Source: an uncultured bacterium (GTDB taxonomy: Bacteria > Bacillota_I > Bacilli_A > RF39 > UBA660). Taken from it: a DNA stretch of 40,735 nucleotides. Every line of letters begins with the position of its first letter. The stretch's first letter is position 1. The stretch covers positions 1-40,735 of the forward strand of contig CASDWO010000055.1 of NCBI GenBank assembly GCA_949284575.1, read 5' to 3'. The notes below the pieces were generated by a model. The model searched no databases and was not told where the DNA came from. It was given only the letters and a program-made list of their open reading frames with translations. Below, one piece after another: positions 8,871 through 39,646 of the stretch. Both the position numbers and the translations under genes were made by a program.

Positions 8871-9222
8871 TATTTTAGACAAGTGCTGGGATTTTATAAT
8901 TCTAGAGGAAAGTCCATGCTCACACAGTCTGCGATGATTGTAGTGTTCGTGCTTAAGGAAAAAATAACTTAAGGTAGTGGTTAACACTAACGGCGAAGAG
9001 TTTTACCTAAAGATTTATCCATGGTAGACTTATGCAGTGCCACAGTGACGATTTTTTAGGAAACTAAAAAGTGAAACGCGGTAAACCCCACGAGTGAGAA
9101 ACCCAAATTATGGTAGGGGAGCTTTAAAAGGAGAAGTGAATTCTTTTAAGGACTAGAAATAGTAGATAGATACTTGTCACCTAGTAATAGGTACAGAACA
9201 TGGCTTATTAAATATTAATTAT
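8863..9222 (+). ncRNA. rnpB: RNase P RNA, type B
   Basis: Ribozyme that matures tRNA 5' ends. Universally conserved blocks are visible: GAGGAAAGTCCATGCTC (P4 5' strand) near 8908-8924, GTAGTGTTCGTGCTTA, GTGCCACAGTGACGA, GAAACGCGGTAAACCCC, GAGAAACCCAAAT, and ACAGAACATGGCTTA (P4 3' strand) near the end. The layout matches the Bacillus B type. I set the limits from helix P1, where 8863-8875 pairs with 9210-9222 (13 pairs, one G-T). By this boundary the gene overlaps the last codons of gpsB. Mature ends may be a few bases inside. Confidence 0.95.
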
Positions 9223-36287: not shown

Positions 36288-36318
36288 ATAGCCAATTTCA
36301 TTGAAGGAGGATTTAAAA

Positions 36319-36885
36319 ATGAATAATAATAATTCAAAATTATTCTATGACTTTATTAGGTCGAATGGATTTAATCCTGAAAACTATTATCAAACTTTAG
36401 AGTTAGTTCAATCTGTACCTAATTCTATGTCACAATATTTAAGAGAATATAAGCAATTTCTATTATCTAGAAAAGTTACTTATAGTGAGTTAGAAGAATA
36501 TGATATAAAAGGTGCTTTAGGTTATCTTGAAGCTGATGCGACAATAACAGTTCCTAAAACATTAGAAGCAGATGATTATTTTAGATATCATAGACCAAAG
36601 CTACCATATACACCTCATGGTTATAGATATCCAGATATTTCTGAATTTGATACAGGTGTTGTATTTATGGATGAATTTAGTCGTAATGAAGTATCAGAAA
36701 TAATTAAACTATCATGTGCAAAGAACTTTCCTAATATGTTTATAGGCTTTGTATCTGATAAAAATGATAAAGCTTTGAGTTTTAAAGAAAATTCTCTTAA
36801 AAGATTAAGTGATATATTTTCTTATCATATGGTTCATGATACTGATAGTGAAAAAGGCAAAGAATTTTATCTAATGAAAAGATAA
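36319..36885 (+). CDS. Unknown protein under a consensus promoter
   Basis: A 188-residue soluble protein that I cannot place. AAGGAGG lies 7 bases before ATG 36319, so translation should be strong; an upstream TTG at 36301 is not needed. The sequence is rich in Tyr and Pro in the middle (RYHRPKLPYTPHGYRYPDISEF), has one Cys, and no membrane or signal segment. The N-terminal 60 residues look helical. Promoter and ribosome site both imply high expression. Confidence 0.85.
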   Translation: MNNNNSKLFYDFIRSNGFNPENYYQTLELVQSVPNSMSQYLREYKQFLLSRKVTYSELEEYDIKGALGYLEADATITVPKTLEADDYFRYHRPKLPYTPHGYRYPDISEFDTGVVFMDEFSRNEVSEIIKLSCAKNFPNMFIGFVSDKNDKALSFKENSLKRLSDIFSYHMVHDTDSEKGKEFYLMKR

Positions 36886-36905: not shown

Positions 36906-36934
36906 TTGAAAATAAGATATATTTATGATATGAT
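36906..36934 (+). promoter_or_regulatory. Promoter of the plus-strand RNA
   Basis: TTGAAA (36906-36911), 17 bases, TATGAT (36929-36934). A second possible -10, TATAAA at 36957-36962, would start the RNA just before the repeated AGGAATAC word. Confidence 0.65.
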
Positions 36935-36940
36935 GAATAC

Positions 36941-37050
36941 GTAAAGAAAATTTACATATAAATAAAAAAGAGGAATACCTAGTTTTGCATCATGGGTATT
37001 TATCTCAATAAAATGAGTTCACCCTTATACAGTGATGTAAAGGGTGTTTA
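36941..37050 (+). ncRNA. Candidate antitoxin-like RNA convergent to a small hydrophobic ORF
   Basis: Between the promoter and the hairpin at 37020-37046 lies a segment with a 5' stem (AATACC 36974-36979 with GGTATT 36995-37000), then CTCA-ATAAAA-TGAG, and the shared terminator. There is no good ribosome site for the ORF it contains (ATG 36992). The 3' part overlaps the end of the minus-strand mRNA and is complementary to it. Ends are estimated from promoter and hairpin. Confidence 0.5.
37020..37046. terminator. Shared hairpin between the convergent RNAs
   Basis: CACCCTT (37020-37026) plus TACA (37028-37031) pair with TGTA (37036-37039) plus AAGGGTG (37040-37046), giving 11 pairs with one bulged A and a GTGA loop. 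It sits one base after the small ORF stop on the minus strand, and T-rich sequence follows on the plus strand. Confidence 0.65.
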
Positions 37051-37116
37051 TTTATATAATATTAAAAGTACTATTATTAGTAATAATATCGTTATTAATA
37101 AATCTTTCTTGCTCAT
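37048..37116 (-). CDS. 22-residue hydrophobic peptide, type I toxin-like
   Basis: ATG (37116-37114) opens 22 codons ending TAA. The peptide begins MSKKDLLIT, continues as a nearly unbroken run of Leu, Ile and Val, and ends LYK: a single membrane helix with basic ends. AAGGAG (37130-37125) is 8 bases upstream, an ideal ribosome site. The peptide has no proline of the Fst/Ldr signature, so it is not clearly in that family. It is encoded antisense to a convergent small RNA and next to a shared terminator, the layout of type I toxin-antitoxin loci. Toxicity is inferred. Confidence 0.6.
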   Translation of the reverse strand: MSKKDLLITILLLIIVLLILYK

Positions 37117-37123
37117 AGGCAAG

Positions 37124-37160
37124 TCTCCTTTCTAACCATTAGAAATGGAAAATAAGGAGA
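37124..37160 (-). promoter_or_regulatory. Leader hairpin that can hide the small-ORF ribosome site
   Basis: On the minus strand UCUCCUU (37160-37154) is an exact complement of AAGGAGA (37130-37124), the ribosome site of the 22-residue ORF, with a small CCATT-TCT-AATGG hairpin between. Folding would block translation, as in many type I toxin mRNAs. The leader also has a ten-codon upstream ORF starting at 37172. Confidence 0.6.
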
Positions 37161-37190
37161 TAAACACTCATACTAAGTATTCCTAATTAA

Positions 37191-37199
37191 ATGATAGCA
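37191..37199 (-). promoter_or_regulatory. Extended -10 promoter candidate for the small-ORF mRNA
   Basis: On the minus strand TGCTATCAT gives TGn plus TATCAT (-10 at 37196-37191). The -35 is poor. The predicted RNA start, about 37184, coincides with the first base of the repeated AGGAATAC word. Confidence 0.45.
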
Positions 37200-37200
37200 T

Positions 37201-37239
37201 AAATGTATCTATAAAATAATCGAACAAGATACATTTTTT
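37201..37239. promoter_or_regulatory. Inverted repeat upstream of copZ
   Basis: AAATGTATC (37201-37209) and GATACATTT (37228-37236) are perfect inverted copies, followed by T. It could be a terminator on the plus strand or an operator between the small-ORF promoter and copZ. It is not a CopY-type TACAnnTGTA box. Confidence 0.4.
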
Positions 37240-37268: not shown

Positions 37269-37484
37269 ATGAAAATAAAATATAATGTTTCTAATATGCA
37301 TTGCACAGGCTGTGAAAATAGAATAATAAACTCTTTAAAAATGATAAAAGGTGTTAAGAATGTTAAAGCTGATCATACTAAAGGAGAAGTTGTTGTAGAG
37401 TTAAAAAATGATGAGATTAGAGAAGAAGTGAAGAAACTACTTAATAATTTAGAATTTGCTGTAATTAGTGATAGTGAGCTGTAA
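37269..37484 (+). CDS. copZ: Copper chaperone, CopZ-like
   Basis: A 71-residue heavy-metal-associated domain. VSNMHCTGCENRI carries the Cu(I)-binding CxxC, and the beta-alpha-beta-beta-alpha-beta layout is complete. It would pass copper to the ATPase encoded next. CGAGGAGAGATTAATA precedes the ATG. Its TAA shares a base with the copA ATG (TAATG). No CsoR or CopY gene is in view. Confidence 0.92.
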   Translation: MKIKYNVSNMHCTGCENRIINSLKMIKGVKNVKADHTKGEVVVELKNDEIREEVKKLLNNLEFAVISDSEL

Positions 37485-39646
37485 TGAAAAAAGTTATTTT
37501 GAATATAGAGGGAATGACTTGTACTGCTTGTTCTCTCGGATTAGAAAAATTTTTAAATAAACAAGAAGGTATAGTTGAAGCTAGTGTTAATTTAGTCCTT
37601 GCTACAGCAACTATTAAATATAAAGATAATTTATCTATCAATGAGATTGAAAAATATATTAGACAAGCAGGATTTAAAAGCCTTGGTAAAAGTGAGGAAG
37701 GTAAGTCTAAAAATGCGAAAAGTTTGTTAATATTATTTACAATTTTAGAGATAGTTCTTATGTATGTTTCAATGGGAAATATGTTTAACTTACCTATGTT
37801 ATCGTTTTTAGATATTCATAAAGAACCTGTTATTTATACTATTTTTGTATTTTTTTTGACAGTGTTATTTATCTTTTATGGGTTTGATATTATTAAAAAT
37901 GGAATTTTAAATCTAATAAAAGGACATCCTAATATGGATACTTTAGTGGGAGTAGGAGTTATTGTAAATTTTCTATATAGCTGTTATTTTGCTTTTTTGA
38001 TGATAACTTCAGGAGTTAGTTATTTTCATAATCTTTATTTTGAAAGTTCTGCTACTATTATTTTCTTTGTGAAGTTAGGACGTTTTATTGAAAGTAAAAA
38101 TAAAAGTAGAGCTGCTGATAGTATTAGAAATCTTGTGGAAATTACTCCTAAGAAAGGGATTGTTAAGAAAAACAATAAAGAAGTTGAGGTAACAATAGAT
38201 GAAATTAAAGAAGGAGATATTGTTGTTTCTAAAGCAGGGGATAAAATTAGTGTAGATGGTGTTATTGTTAAAGGAGAAACTTATGTTGATGAGTCATTTT
38301 TAACAGGTGAAAGTGGTCCTATAAAAAAGAAAATTAACTCTAAGGTATTAGCAGGTAGTTATAATTATGATGGATATATTGAATATAAGGCTTTATCTGT
38401 AGGAAAAAATTCTAGTATTTCTAAAATAGTTGATTTAGTTATTGATGCTACTAATTCTAAACCTAATATTGCTAAATTTGCTGATCATGTTAGTGCTTAT
38501 TTTGTTCCTTTTATTTTTATAGTAGCAGTTGTTAGTTTTATTATCCATTTACTATTAGGAAATTCTTTTGGTTTAGCGATTAATTCTTTGGTATCTGTTT
38601 TGGTAGTTGCTTGTCCTTGTGCTTTAGGACTTGCTACACCTCTTGCGATAGTTTTAGCTATTTCTTATTGTAGTAAAAAAGGAATCTTAGTAAAAAATGG
38701 TAATAGTTTTGAATTAATTAATAACATTAATACAGTTGTTTTTGATAAGACGGGGACGCTTACAGAAGCGAAAATAAAATTAATAGATGGTATTTATCAA
38801 AGAGATGATCTAATTATTTTACAAAATTTAGAATTAAATTCTAATCATCCACTTGCAAAAGGGATAGTTGAAACTTGTGAATTTCCTAGAGTTTTAGTTA
38901 CAAATTTTAAAGAAGAAGCAGGATTTGGAGTTAGTGCTATTATTAATAAAACAAAGTATTATGCTGGTGGATTAAATTTTCTTATAAAGAAAAAGTTAAA
39001 TAATCCTTTCTTAGATAATAAAAAATATTTAGATAATCTTAATAATAGTATTATTTTTCTTTTTACTGATGAGAAAGTCTTGGCTGTTTTCTTTTTAAGC
39101 GATGAGATAAAAAAAGATTCTTTTGGTGTTGTTAAAACATTGAAAGAAATGAATAAGAAAGTTGTAATGTTAACAGGGGATAATAAAAATATCGCTTTTT
39201 CTGTTGCAAATAAGCTTGGTATTGATAAAGTAATTAGTGATGTTTTACCTAAAGAAAAGTTAGATTTTATTGAAAAAAATAATACTAACAATAATATAAT
39301 GATGGTAGGAGATGGGATTAATGATAGTCCTGCCTTAAAAAAAGCAGCTGTTTCTATTAGTGTTTTTAAAGGAACTGATATTAGTGCTGATGCTAGTGAT
39401 ATTGTTTTATTAAGAGATAGTTTAATGTTAATTCCATCTTTATTTAATATTAGTAAGAGGACTTTTAGAATAATTAAAGAAAATTTATTTTTGGCACTTT
39501 TTTATAATGTTTCTATGATACCTCTTGCTACAGGTTTTTTACCTATTAAACTTAATCCAATGATTGCTAGTCTTGCGATGACATTAAGTAGTGTTACAGT
39601 AGTTTTAAATAGTCTTAGACTTTTGAAATCAAGGAAAGAGTTATAA
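37484..39646 (+). CDS. copA: Copper-exporting P-type ATPase
   Basis: A P1B-type ATPase of 720 residues that pumps Cu(I) out of the cell. One N-terminal HMA domain (GMTCTACSLGLEKF, CxxC) is followed by membrane helices, the actuator TGES-type FLTGESGPI, the transmembrane CPC in VVACPCALGLATP, the phosphorylation site FDKTGTLTEA, the NHPLAKGI His-Pro and GDGINDSPALKKA. All catalytic motifs are intact. The end overlaps the convergent glycosylase by 6 bases with no terminator between. Confidence 0.95.
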   Translation: MKKVILNIEGMTCTACSLGLEKFLNKQEGIVEASVNLVLATATIKYKDNLSINEIEKYIRQAGFKSLGKSEEGKSKNAKSLLILFTILEIVLMYVSMGNMFNLPMLSFLDIHKEPVIYTIFVFFLTVLFIFYGFDIIKNGILNLIKGHPNMDTLVGVGVIVNFLYSCYFAFLMITSGVSYFHNLYFESSATIIFFVKLGRFIESKNKSRAADSIRNLVEITPKKGIVKKNNKEVEVTIDEIKEGDIVVSKAGDKISVDGVIVKGETYVDESFLTGESGPIKKKINSKVLAGSYNYDGYIEYKALSVGKNSSISKIVDLVIDATNSKPNIAKFADHVSAYFVPFIFIVAVVSFIIHLLLGNSFGLAINSLVSVLVVACPCALGLATPLAIVLAISYCSKKGILVKNGNSFELINNINTVVFDKTGTLTEAKIKLIDGIYQRDDLIILQNLELNSNHPLAKGIVETCEFPRVLVTNFKEEAGFGVSAIINKTKYYAGGLNFLIKKKLNNPFLDNKKYLDNLNNSIIFLFTDEKVLAVFFLSDEIKKDSFGVVKTLKEMNKKVVMLTGDNKNIAFSVANKLGIDKVISDVLPKEKLDFIEKNNTNNNIMMVGDGINDSPALKKAAVSISVFKGTDISADASDIVLLRDSLMLIPSLFNISKRTFRIIKENLFLALFYNVSMIPLATGFLPIKLNPMIASLAMTLSSVTVVLNSLRLLKSRKEL

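Follow-up and report, generated by a model that had tools for sequence, protein, structure and literature searches.

Type I toxin-antitoxin loci easily escape detection, since both of their parts are tiny. The toxin IbsC of E. coli has only 19 amino acids (PMC8309996), and AapA1 has 30 (PMC6733600, PMC8309996). The par locus of E. faecalis (Fst, RNAI/RNAII) carries direct repeats, complementary 5' ends, and a shared bidirectional terminator (PMC8167048). In the Bacillus subtilis txpA/RatA system, RNase III is required (PMC8167048), and for aapA3 of Helicobacter it was shown experimentally that an anti-Shine-Dalgarno (anti-SD) hairpin locks the mRNA and is followed by 5'-3' closure (PMC6733600). 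The type I toxins of C. difficile are 34-53 aa long and often lie in prophages or beside CRISPR arrays (PMC6563280). For the uncultured gut bacteria considered here, a literature search, mostly limited to papers outside subscription, returned nothing linking RF39 to toxin-antitoxin systems, nor anything on this gut group under type I systems of Tenericutes from uncultured or metagenomic sources.

Here, we compare with these systems a small locus in the window, i.e., the whole 40,735-nucleotide stretch analysed (contig CASDWO010000055.1 of assembly GCA_949284575.1). We assign the window to Candidatus Onthousia, a genus name in use for uncultured chicken-gut Bacilli (PMC8035907), because one Onthousia record is identical over 1001 bases to the congener G008; the core of the antisense RNA described below is also present in Candidatus Onthousia species records of a named collection. 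An original prediction, made from the letters of the window, had proposed a compact type I toxin-antitoxin-like locus. Its elements are present as claimed: a minus-strand ORF of 22 codons from an ATG, the SD sequence before it, a leader heptamer exactly complementary to that SD, and a plus-strand promoter running toward the ORF. Further, the search of related genomes that it had proposed found the ORF and its SD conserved in relatives. The first reading had missed the toxin promoter, the mRNA's own terminator (36964-37006), and a 23-28-bp helix between the two ends of the mRNA. Sequence comparison delineates the ORF, both promoters, and the RNA structures (Table 1), as well as the copy number and distribution of such loci. 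Elsewhere in the window lies a class B RNase P RNA (8871-9212, plus strand; RF00011, 283 bits).

Table 1. Features of the putative toxin-antitoxin locus, in window coordinates.
Feature	Position	Strand	Basis
Putative toxin ORF, 22-aa membrane peptide MSKKDLLITILLLIIVLLILYK	37048..37116	-	paralogues and orthologues, dN/dS
Shine-Dalgarno AAGGAGA, 7-8 nt 5' of ATG	37124..37130	-	conserved
Anti-SD TCTCCTT in leader, exact complement of SD	37154..37160	-	pairing probabilities
Toxin promoter TTATTT-17-(TGC)TATCAT	37191..37219	-	family consensus TTGTTT-17-TGnTATTAT
mRNA 5' closing arms GGAATACTTAGT (37183-37172) and GAGTGTTTATCTC (37169-37157); start is the presumed transcription start	37157..37183	-	
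mRNA 3' closing arms GAGATAAATACCC (37006-36994) and ACTAGGTATTCC (36983-36972)	36972..37006	-	together also terminator hairpin
Toxin mRNA terminator T-run	36964..36969	-	five T invariant in alignment A2
Antisense RNA promoter TTGAAA-17-TATGAT, extended -10 TG	36906..36934	+	conservation in 111 copies
Antisense RNA, putative antitoxin	36940..37054	+	fold, model R1 matches
Antisense RNA 5' hairpin	36941-36955	+	
Antisense RNA stem-loop	36970-37006	+	
Antisense RNA terminator, 11-pair hairpin, then TTTATTT	37020-37046	+	stem conserved

Sequences homologous to the entire intergenic region recur in its own 1.48-Mb genome. R1, a covariance model built on the promoter and 5' domain of the antisense RNA, detects 19 copies there. 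These are dispersed in intergenic gaps, several of them adjoining genes that read from their sequences as housekeeping-type, and in nearly all of them the opposite strand has, at a matching position, a short hydrophobic ORF with an SD; measured from the antisense -35 box, its stop codon lies about 140 nt away and its start about 230 nt. Beyond this genome, R1 matched 34 of 35 congeners with up to 27 copies each (10-27 copies in most, in genomes of 1-1.7 Mb) and 139 of the 193 genomes of the order, all belonging to one family and to 64 of 83 genera. A class-wide draw yielded 13 matches among the approximately 25 family members listed and 1 among the rest (about 170 class members), while in a phylum-wide draw R1 was found in 0 of about 285 members outside the family. 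A lone R1 match in another family (L136; G387:C32:11713-11816), with a class B peptide and near a contig end, represents either horizontal transfer or contamination. Phage or plasmid origin was considered and rejected: no viral contig contains the antisense core pattern, and the plasmid and phage hits, which span 9-17% of the query, resemble chance similarities between AT-rich sequences.

The window copy follows a gene for an OpuAC/BPD-type transporter, and the locus holds the same position, at 96-98% identity, in five syntenic species (G034, G012, G015, G030, and G008), of which G012 has a second, class C copy adjoining the syntenic one. In G029 the flanks are kept and only about 21 bases of the locus are recognisable, from the antisense -35 box on; by this comparison the locus is lost there. 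No target-site duplication was evident in the single occupied/empty pair compared, and no prophage was seen around the copies. The immediate neighbours vary: a 194-aa protein without Pfam or NCBIfam match (36301-36882, plus strand) lies between the transporter gene and the locus in the window and in G034 and is absent in G015, G030, G008, and G012. Also next to the locus are genes for a small HMA protein and for a heavy-metal P-type ATPase (37269-39646, plus strand). In G034, G015, G030, and G008 the flanks join across the ATPase, which the syntenic site there lacks. Altered or degraded copies occur as well, such as C85, which has ATA where ATG is expected. In two species, decayed copies lacking an SD lie immediately 3' of intact ones (L065, 1917-2003; L084, 1911-1996), and in one degenerate copy in the own genome (L018, 1692-1900; G000:C63) the toxin half merges into sequence resembling the start of a transposase-type gene, MKIYRAYKFRLYPTEEQ.

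An SD followed by a hydrophobic ATG ORF of 18-35 aa appeared in 4 of 5000 first-order Markov regions of equal size. Across 17 thinned sequences of the 22-aa ORF, pN/pS was 0.22, which corresponds to a dN/dS of about 0.10 (synonymous sites were close to saturation), versus 1.15 and 2.2 in the other two frames of the same DNA. This comparison indicates that the 22-aa peptide is under purifying selection, and an ORF for a small hydrophobic peptide under selection is what a type I toxin-antitoxin locus should contain. At least three unrelated peptide classes occur on the one RNA scaffold ([S/T/N]KKD..., 22-30 aa; MKTKTF...IKK, about 30 aa; MRKIEKFLC..., 30 aa), none of which significantly matched Pfam, NCBIfam, or PHROGs. 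The earlier placement of the peptide outside Fst and Ldr was borne out in Pfam and NCBIfam, where neither was matched even at an E of 10. The own genome's most divergent copy (L175, 568-664; G000:C61:26567-26664) encodes a different peptide, MNKHEKSFFIIIIILLFIIISLIYR, which suggests further toxin classes. In two species an in-frame 18-nt deletion cuts the peptide to 16 aa with all RNA features retained (L056, L061).

Strong purifying selection on the 22-aa peptide would also fit a useful one, namely a small, regulated, non-toxic membrane peptide (a stress or envelope effector) held low by the antisense RNA, and the location of the copies among ordinary chromosomal genes instead of prophages agrees with this. 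We nonetheless judge this alternative unlikely, since 10-27 copies per genome, at least three unrelated peptide classes on one scaffold, triple repression of a 22-aa peptide, copies in decay, and a relative that has lost the locus are all features typical of toxin-antitoxin loci. Very little credence can be given to a dispersed MITE-like or REP-like repeat, whose inverted repeats and hairpins would serve DNA mobility and whose ORF would be incidental. The many similar intergenic copies, the imperfect inverted repeats, the tandem copies, and the presence of some copies at contig ends are as such a repeat would have them, but the in-frame purifying selection, the conserved SD, and the two conserved promoters are not; moreover, copies keep their position between species at 94-98% identity, and the one pair compared has no target-site duplication.

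For the plus-strand RNA, the promoter taken alone is not significant (6 such promoters found versus about 10 expected by shuffling), and we hold it to be real because it is conserved in 111 copies, with the consensus TTGA[A/C]A-17-TGnTA[C/T]nAT. The predicted RNA folds with a z of -4.1, its hairpins contain pairs with changes on both sides, and it has no Rfam family at gathering score, only sub-threshold chance matches. An RNA opposite the toxin mRNA with a promoter and terminator of its own, as predicted here, is characteristic of type I systems. The linker between the hairpins and the hairpin loop reach 54% and 62% pairwise identity, respectively, versus 96% for the outer arms, and such a variable linker and loop would suit cognate specificity. 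That this RNA, acting in trans, is the functional product and the peptide secondary is scarcely credible: its 5' part and promoter are the best-conserved DNA, but this conservation is otherwise explained because the same DNA forms the mRNA terminator and closing arm, the peptide frame is itself selected, and it is the loops and linkers, where contact is likely, that vary.

On the minus strand, the toxin promoter has a 17-nt spacer in 94 of 103 copies, with its -10 box 6-7 nt 5' of the leader GGAA in 90 of 103, and because the promoter sits where it does (37219-37191), the toxin mRNA is taken to start at the 5' closing arm. Very probably, transcription continues to another conserved hairpin with its T6 (37006-36964). 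The 11-pair hairpin downstream of the ORF (37020-37046) had been proposed as a terminator shared by both RNAs; the 11 pairs are there, but they form the terminator of the antisense RNA alone. Since the mRNA has its own terminator, the two RNAs would overlap across the whole 3' UTR, about 90 nt.

The full mRNA folds at -62.6 kcal/mol versus -35.5 for shuffled sequences (z = -7.05), and the minimum-energy fold pairs its 5' end with its 3' end through a closing helix of 23-28 bp, which joins the first nucleotides to the 3' end and is conserved in every class. RNAalifold placed the same helix in 20 non-redundant mRNAs of the 22-aa family (-65.9 versus -15.8 +/- 2.8 for column shuffles) and recovered it separately in classes A, B, and C without prior constraint. 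Cognate closing arms pair at -31 to -34 kcal/mol versus -16 to -20 with arms of other classes, the cognate pairing being better in 80 of 83 cases. Within the 22-aa subfamily, 98.1% of the cells of the closing helix pair versus about 45% when slid, and a column covariation test found no changes on both sides, strict covariation being absent because the helix is nearly invariant there. Coevolution of the closing helix is thus seen only across classes, and inverted duplication could partly explain it.

In the leader alone, the pairing probability of the 6-nt SD core ranges from 0.84 to 0.92 by class versus 0.52-0.58 for shuffled leaders, and the SD is predicted to be sequestered in 96 of 101 copies. 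An earlier accessibility measure taken over a 14-nt stretch gave a weak difference (0.58 versus 0.52); the 6-nt core is the better defined. The SD is also predicted to stay paired in an mRNA lacking the 3' UTR, and activation by 3' trimming in the manner of hok or AapA, which we considered, is not evident because the truncated mRNA keeps its SD paired.

As originally predicted, the best reading of the architecture is of a type I toxin-antitoxin-like system. We consider it likely that the locus works as such, as one of a large family sharing an antisense scaffold; homologous copies, peptide selection, and convergent promoters back this reading, and conserved SD sequestration and the coevolving 5'-3' helix support it further. 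The loci look like toxin genes under RNA control that form a widespread family not described before. We put the detailed RNA mechanism at roughly even odds; in the account that follows, transcription, decay of the duplex, toxicity, and the trigger for activation are inferred. A moderate extended -10 promoter would transcribe the toxin gene into an mRNA that is off by default, its emerging leader hairpin masking the SD. Once the mRNA is complete, its first nucleotides would pair with its own 3' UTR over 23-28 bp. The stronger convergent promoter would yield an antisense RNA of ~110 nt complementary to the entire 3' UTR, which may displace the 5' arm and form a long duplex, leading presumably to decay of the mRNA by RNase III, an enzyme that the own genome encodes. 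If the antisense RNA fell, through loss of the locus or stress, the mRNA would persist and be partly translated, and the single-helix peptide would enter the membrane and halt growth, by analogy with other short type I toxins.

Tentatively, and with slightly less than even confidence, we further propose that the one scaffold serves several unrelated membrane toxins as an exchangeable antitoxin module throughout the family and has multiplied to 10-27 loci per genome of 1-1.7 Mb, with variable loops and the closing helix giving each copy a private specificity. Irrespective of this, the covariance model captures a conserved RNA signature outside Rfam and detects loci across an uncultured gut family, in no fewer than 64 of its genera. 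The resulting natural series, hundreds of loci with several toxins on one RNA scaffold, lets antisense specificity among many paralogues in one cell be examined and bears on why genomes so small should hold 10-27 of these loci.

Compared with the described systems, the locus resembles E. faecalis par, to which the original prediction had likened it, in its compact convergent layout, the related repeats at both RNA 5' ends, and its short hydrophobic peptide. The likeness ends there: the repeats are inverted here and not direct (36972-37006 and 37157-37183), so that the two RNAs start alike and the mRNA self-pairs, and their terminators are separate; together with the profile search, repeat orientation and terminator rule out membership of Fst/par. 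With the C. difficile loci, CD2517.1-RCd8 and others, it shares many convergent chromosomal loci and overlapping toxin and antitoxin RNAs (PMC6563280), but our copies are intergenic, and no prophage was seen. H. pylori aapA/IsoA is alike in its small single-helix peptide and several paralogous loci per genome, and also in a full-length mRNA that is inert and whose 5' and 3' ends interact over a long distance, with SD-sequestering hairpins forming early (PMC6733600, PMC8309996); in our family, prediction and coevolution point to the same closure of the full-length mRNA. Unlike in aapA/IsoA, however, the antisense RNA would cover the 3' UTR only and the truncated mRNA would keep its SD paired, and the peptide matched no model in Pfam, NCBIfam, or PHROGs, libraries that may or may not include AapA. 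The B. subtilis systems txpA/RatA and bsrG/SR4 have in common with it convergent genes in low-GC Gram-positive bacteria, long perfect 3'-end complementarity suiting RNase III, and an antisense promoter closer to consensus (PMC8167048). Profile searches gave no Pfam, NCBIfam, or PHROG match indicating TxpA/BsrG homology, and the peptides are shorter, 22-30 aa versus 59 for TxpA and 38 for BsrG (PMC8167048). The closing helix, found family-wide here, further sets the locus apart from both. The layout is best read as combining a TxpA/RatA-like 3' overlap with a hok/AapA-like 5'-3' closure.
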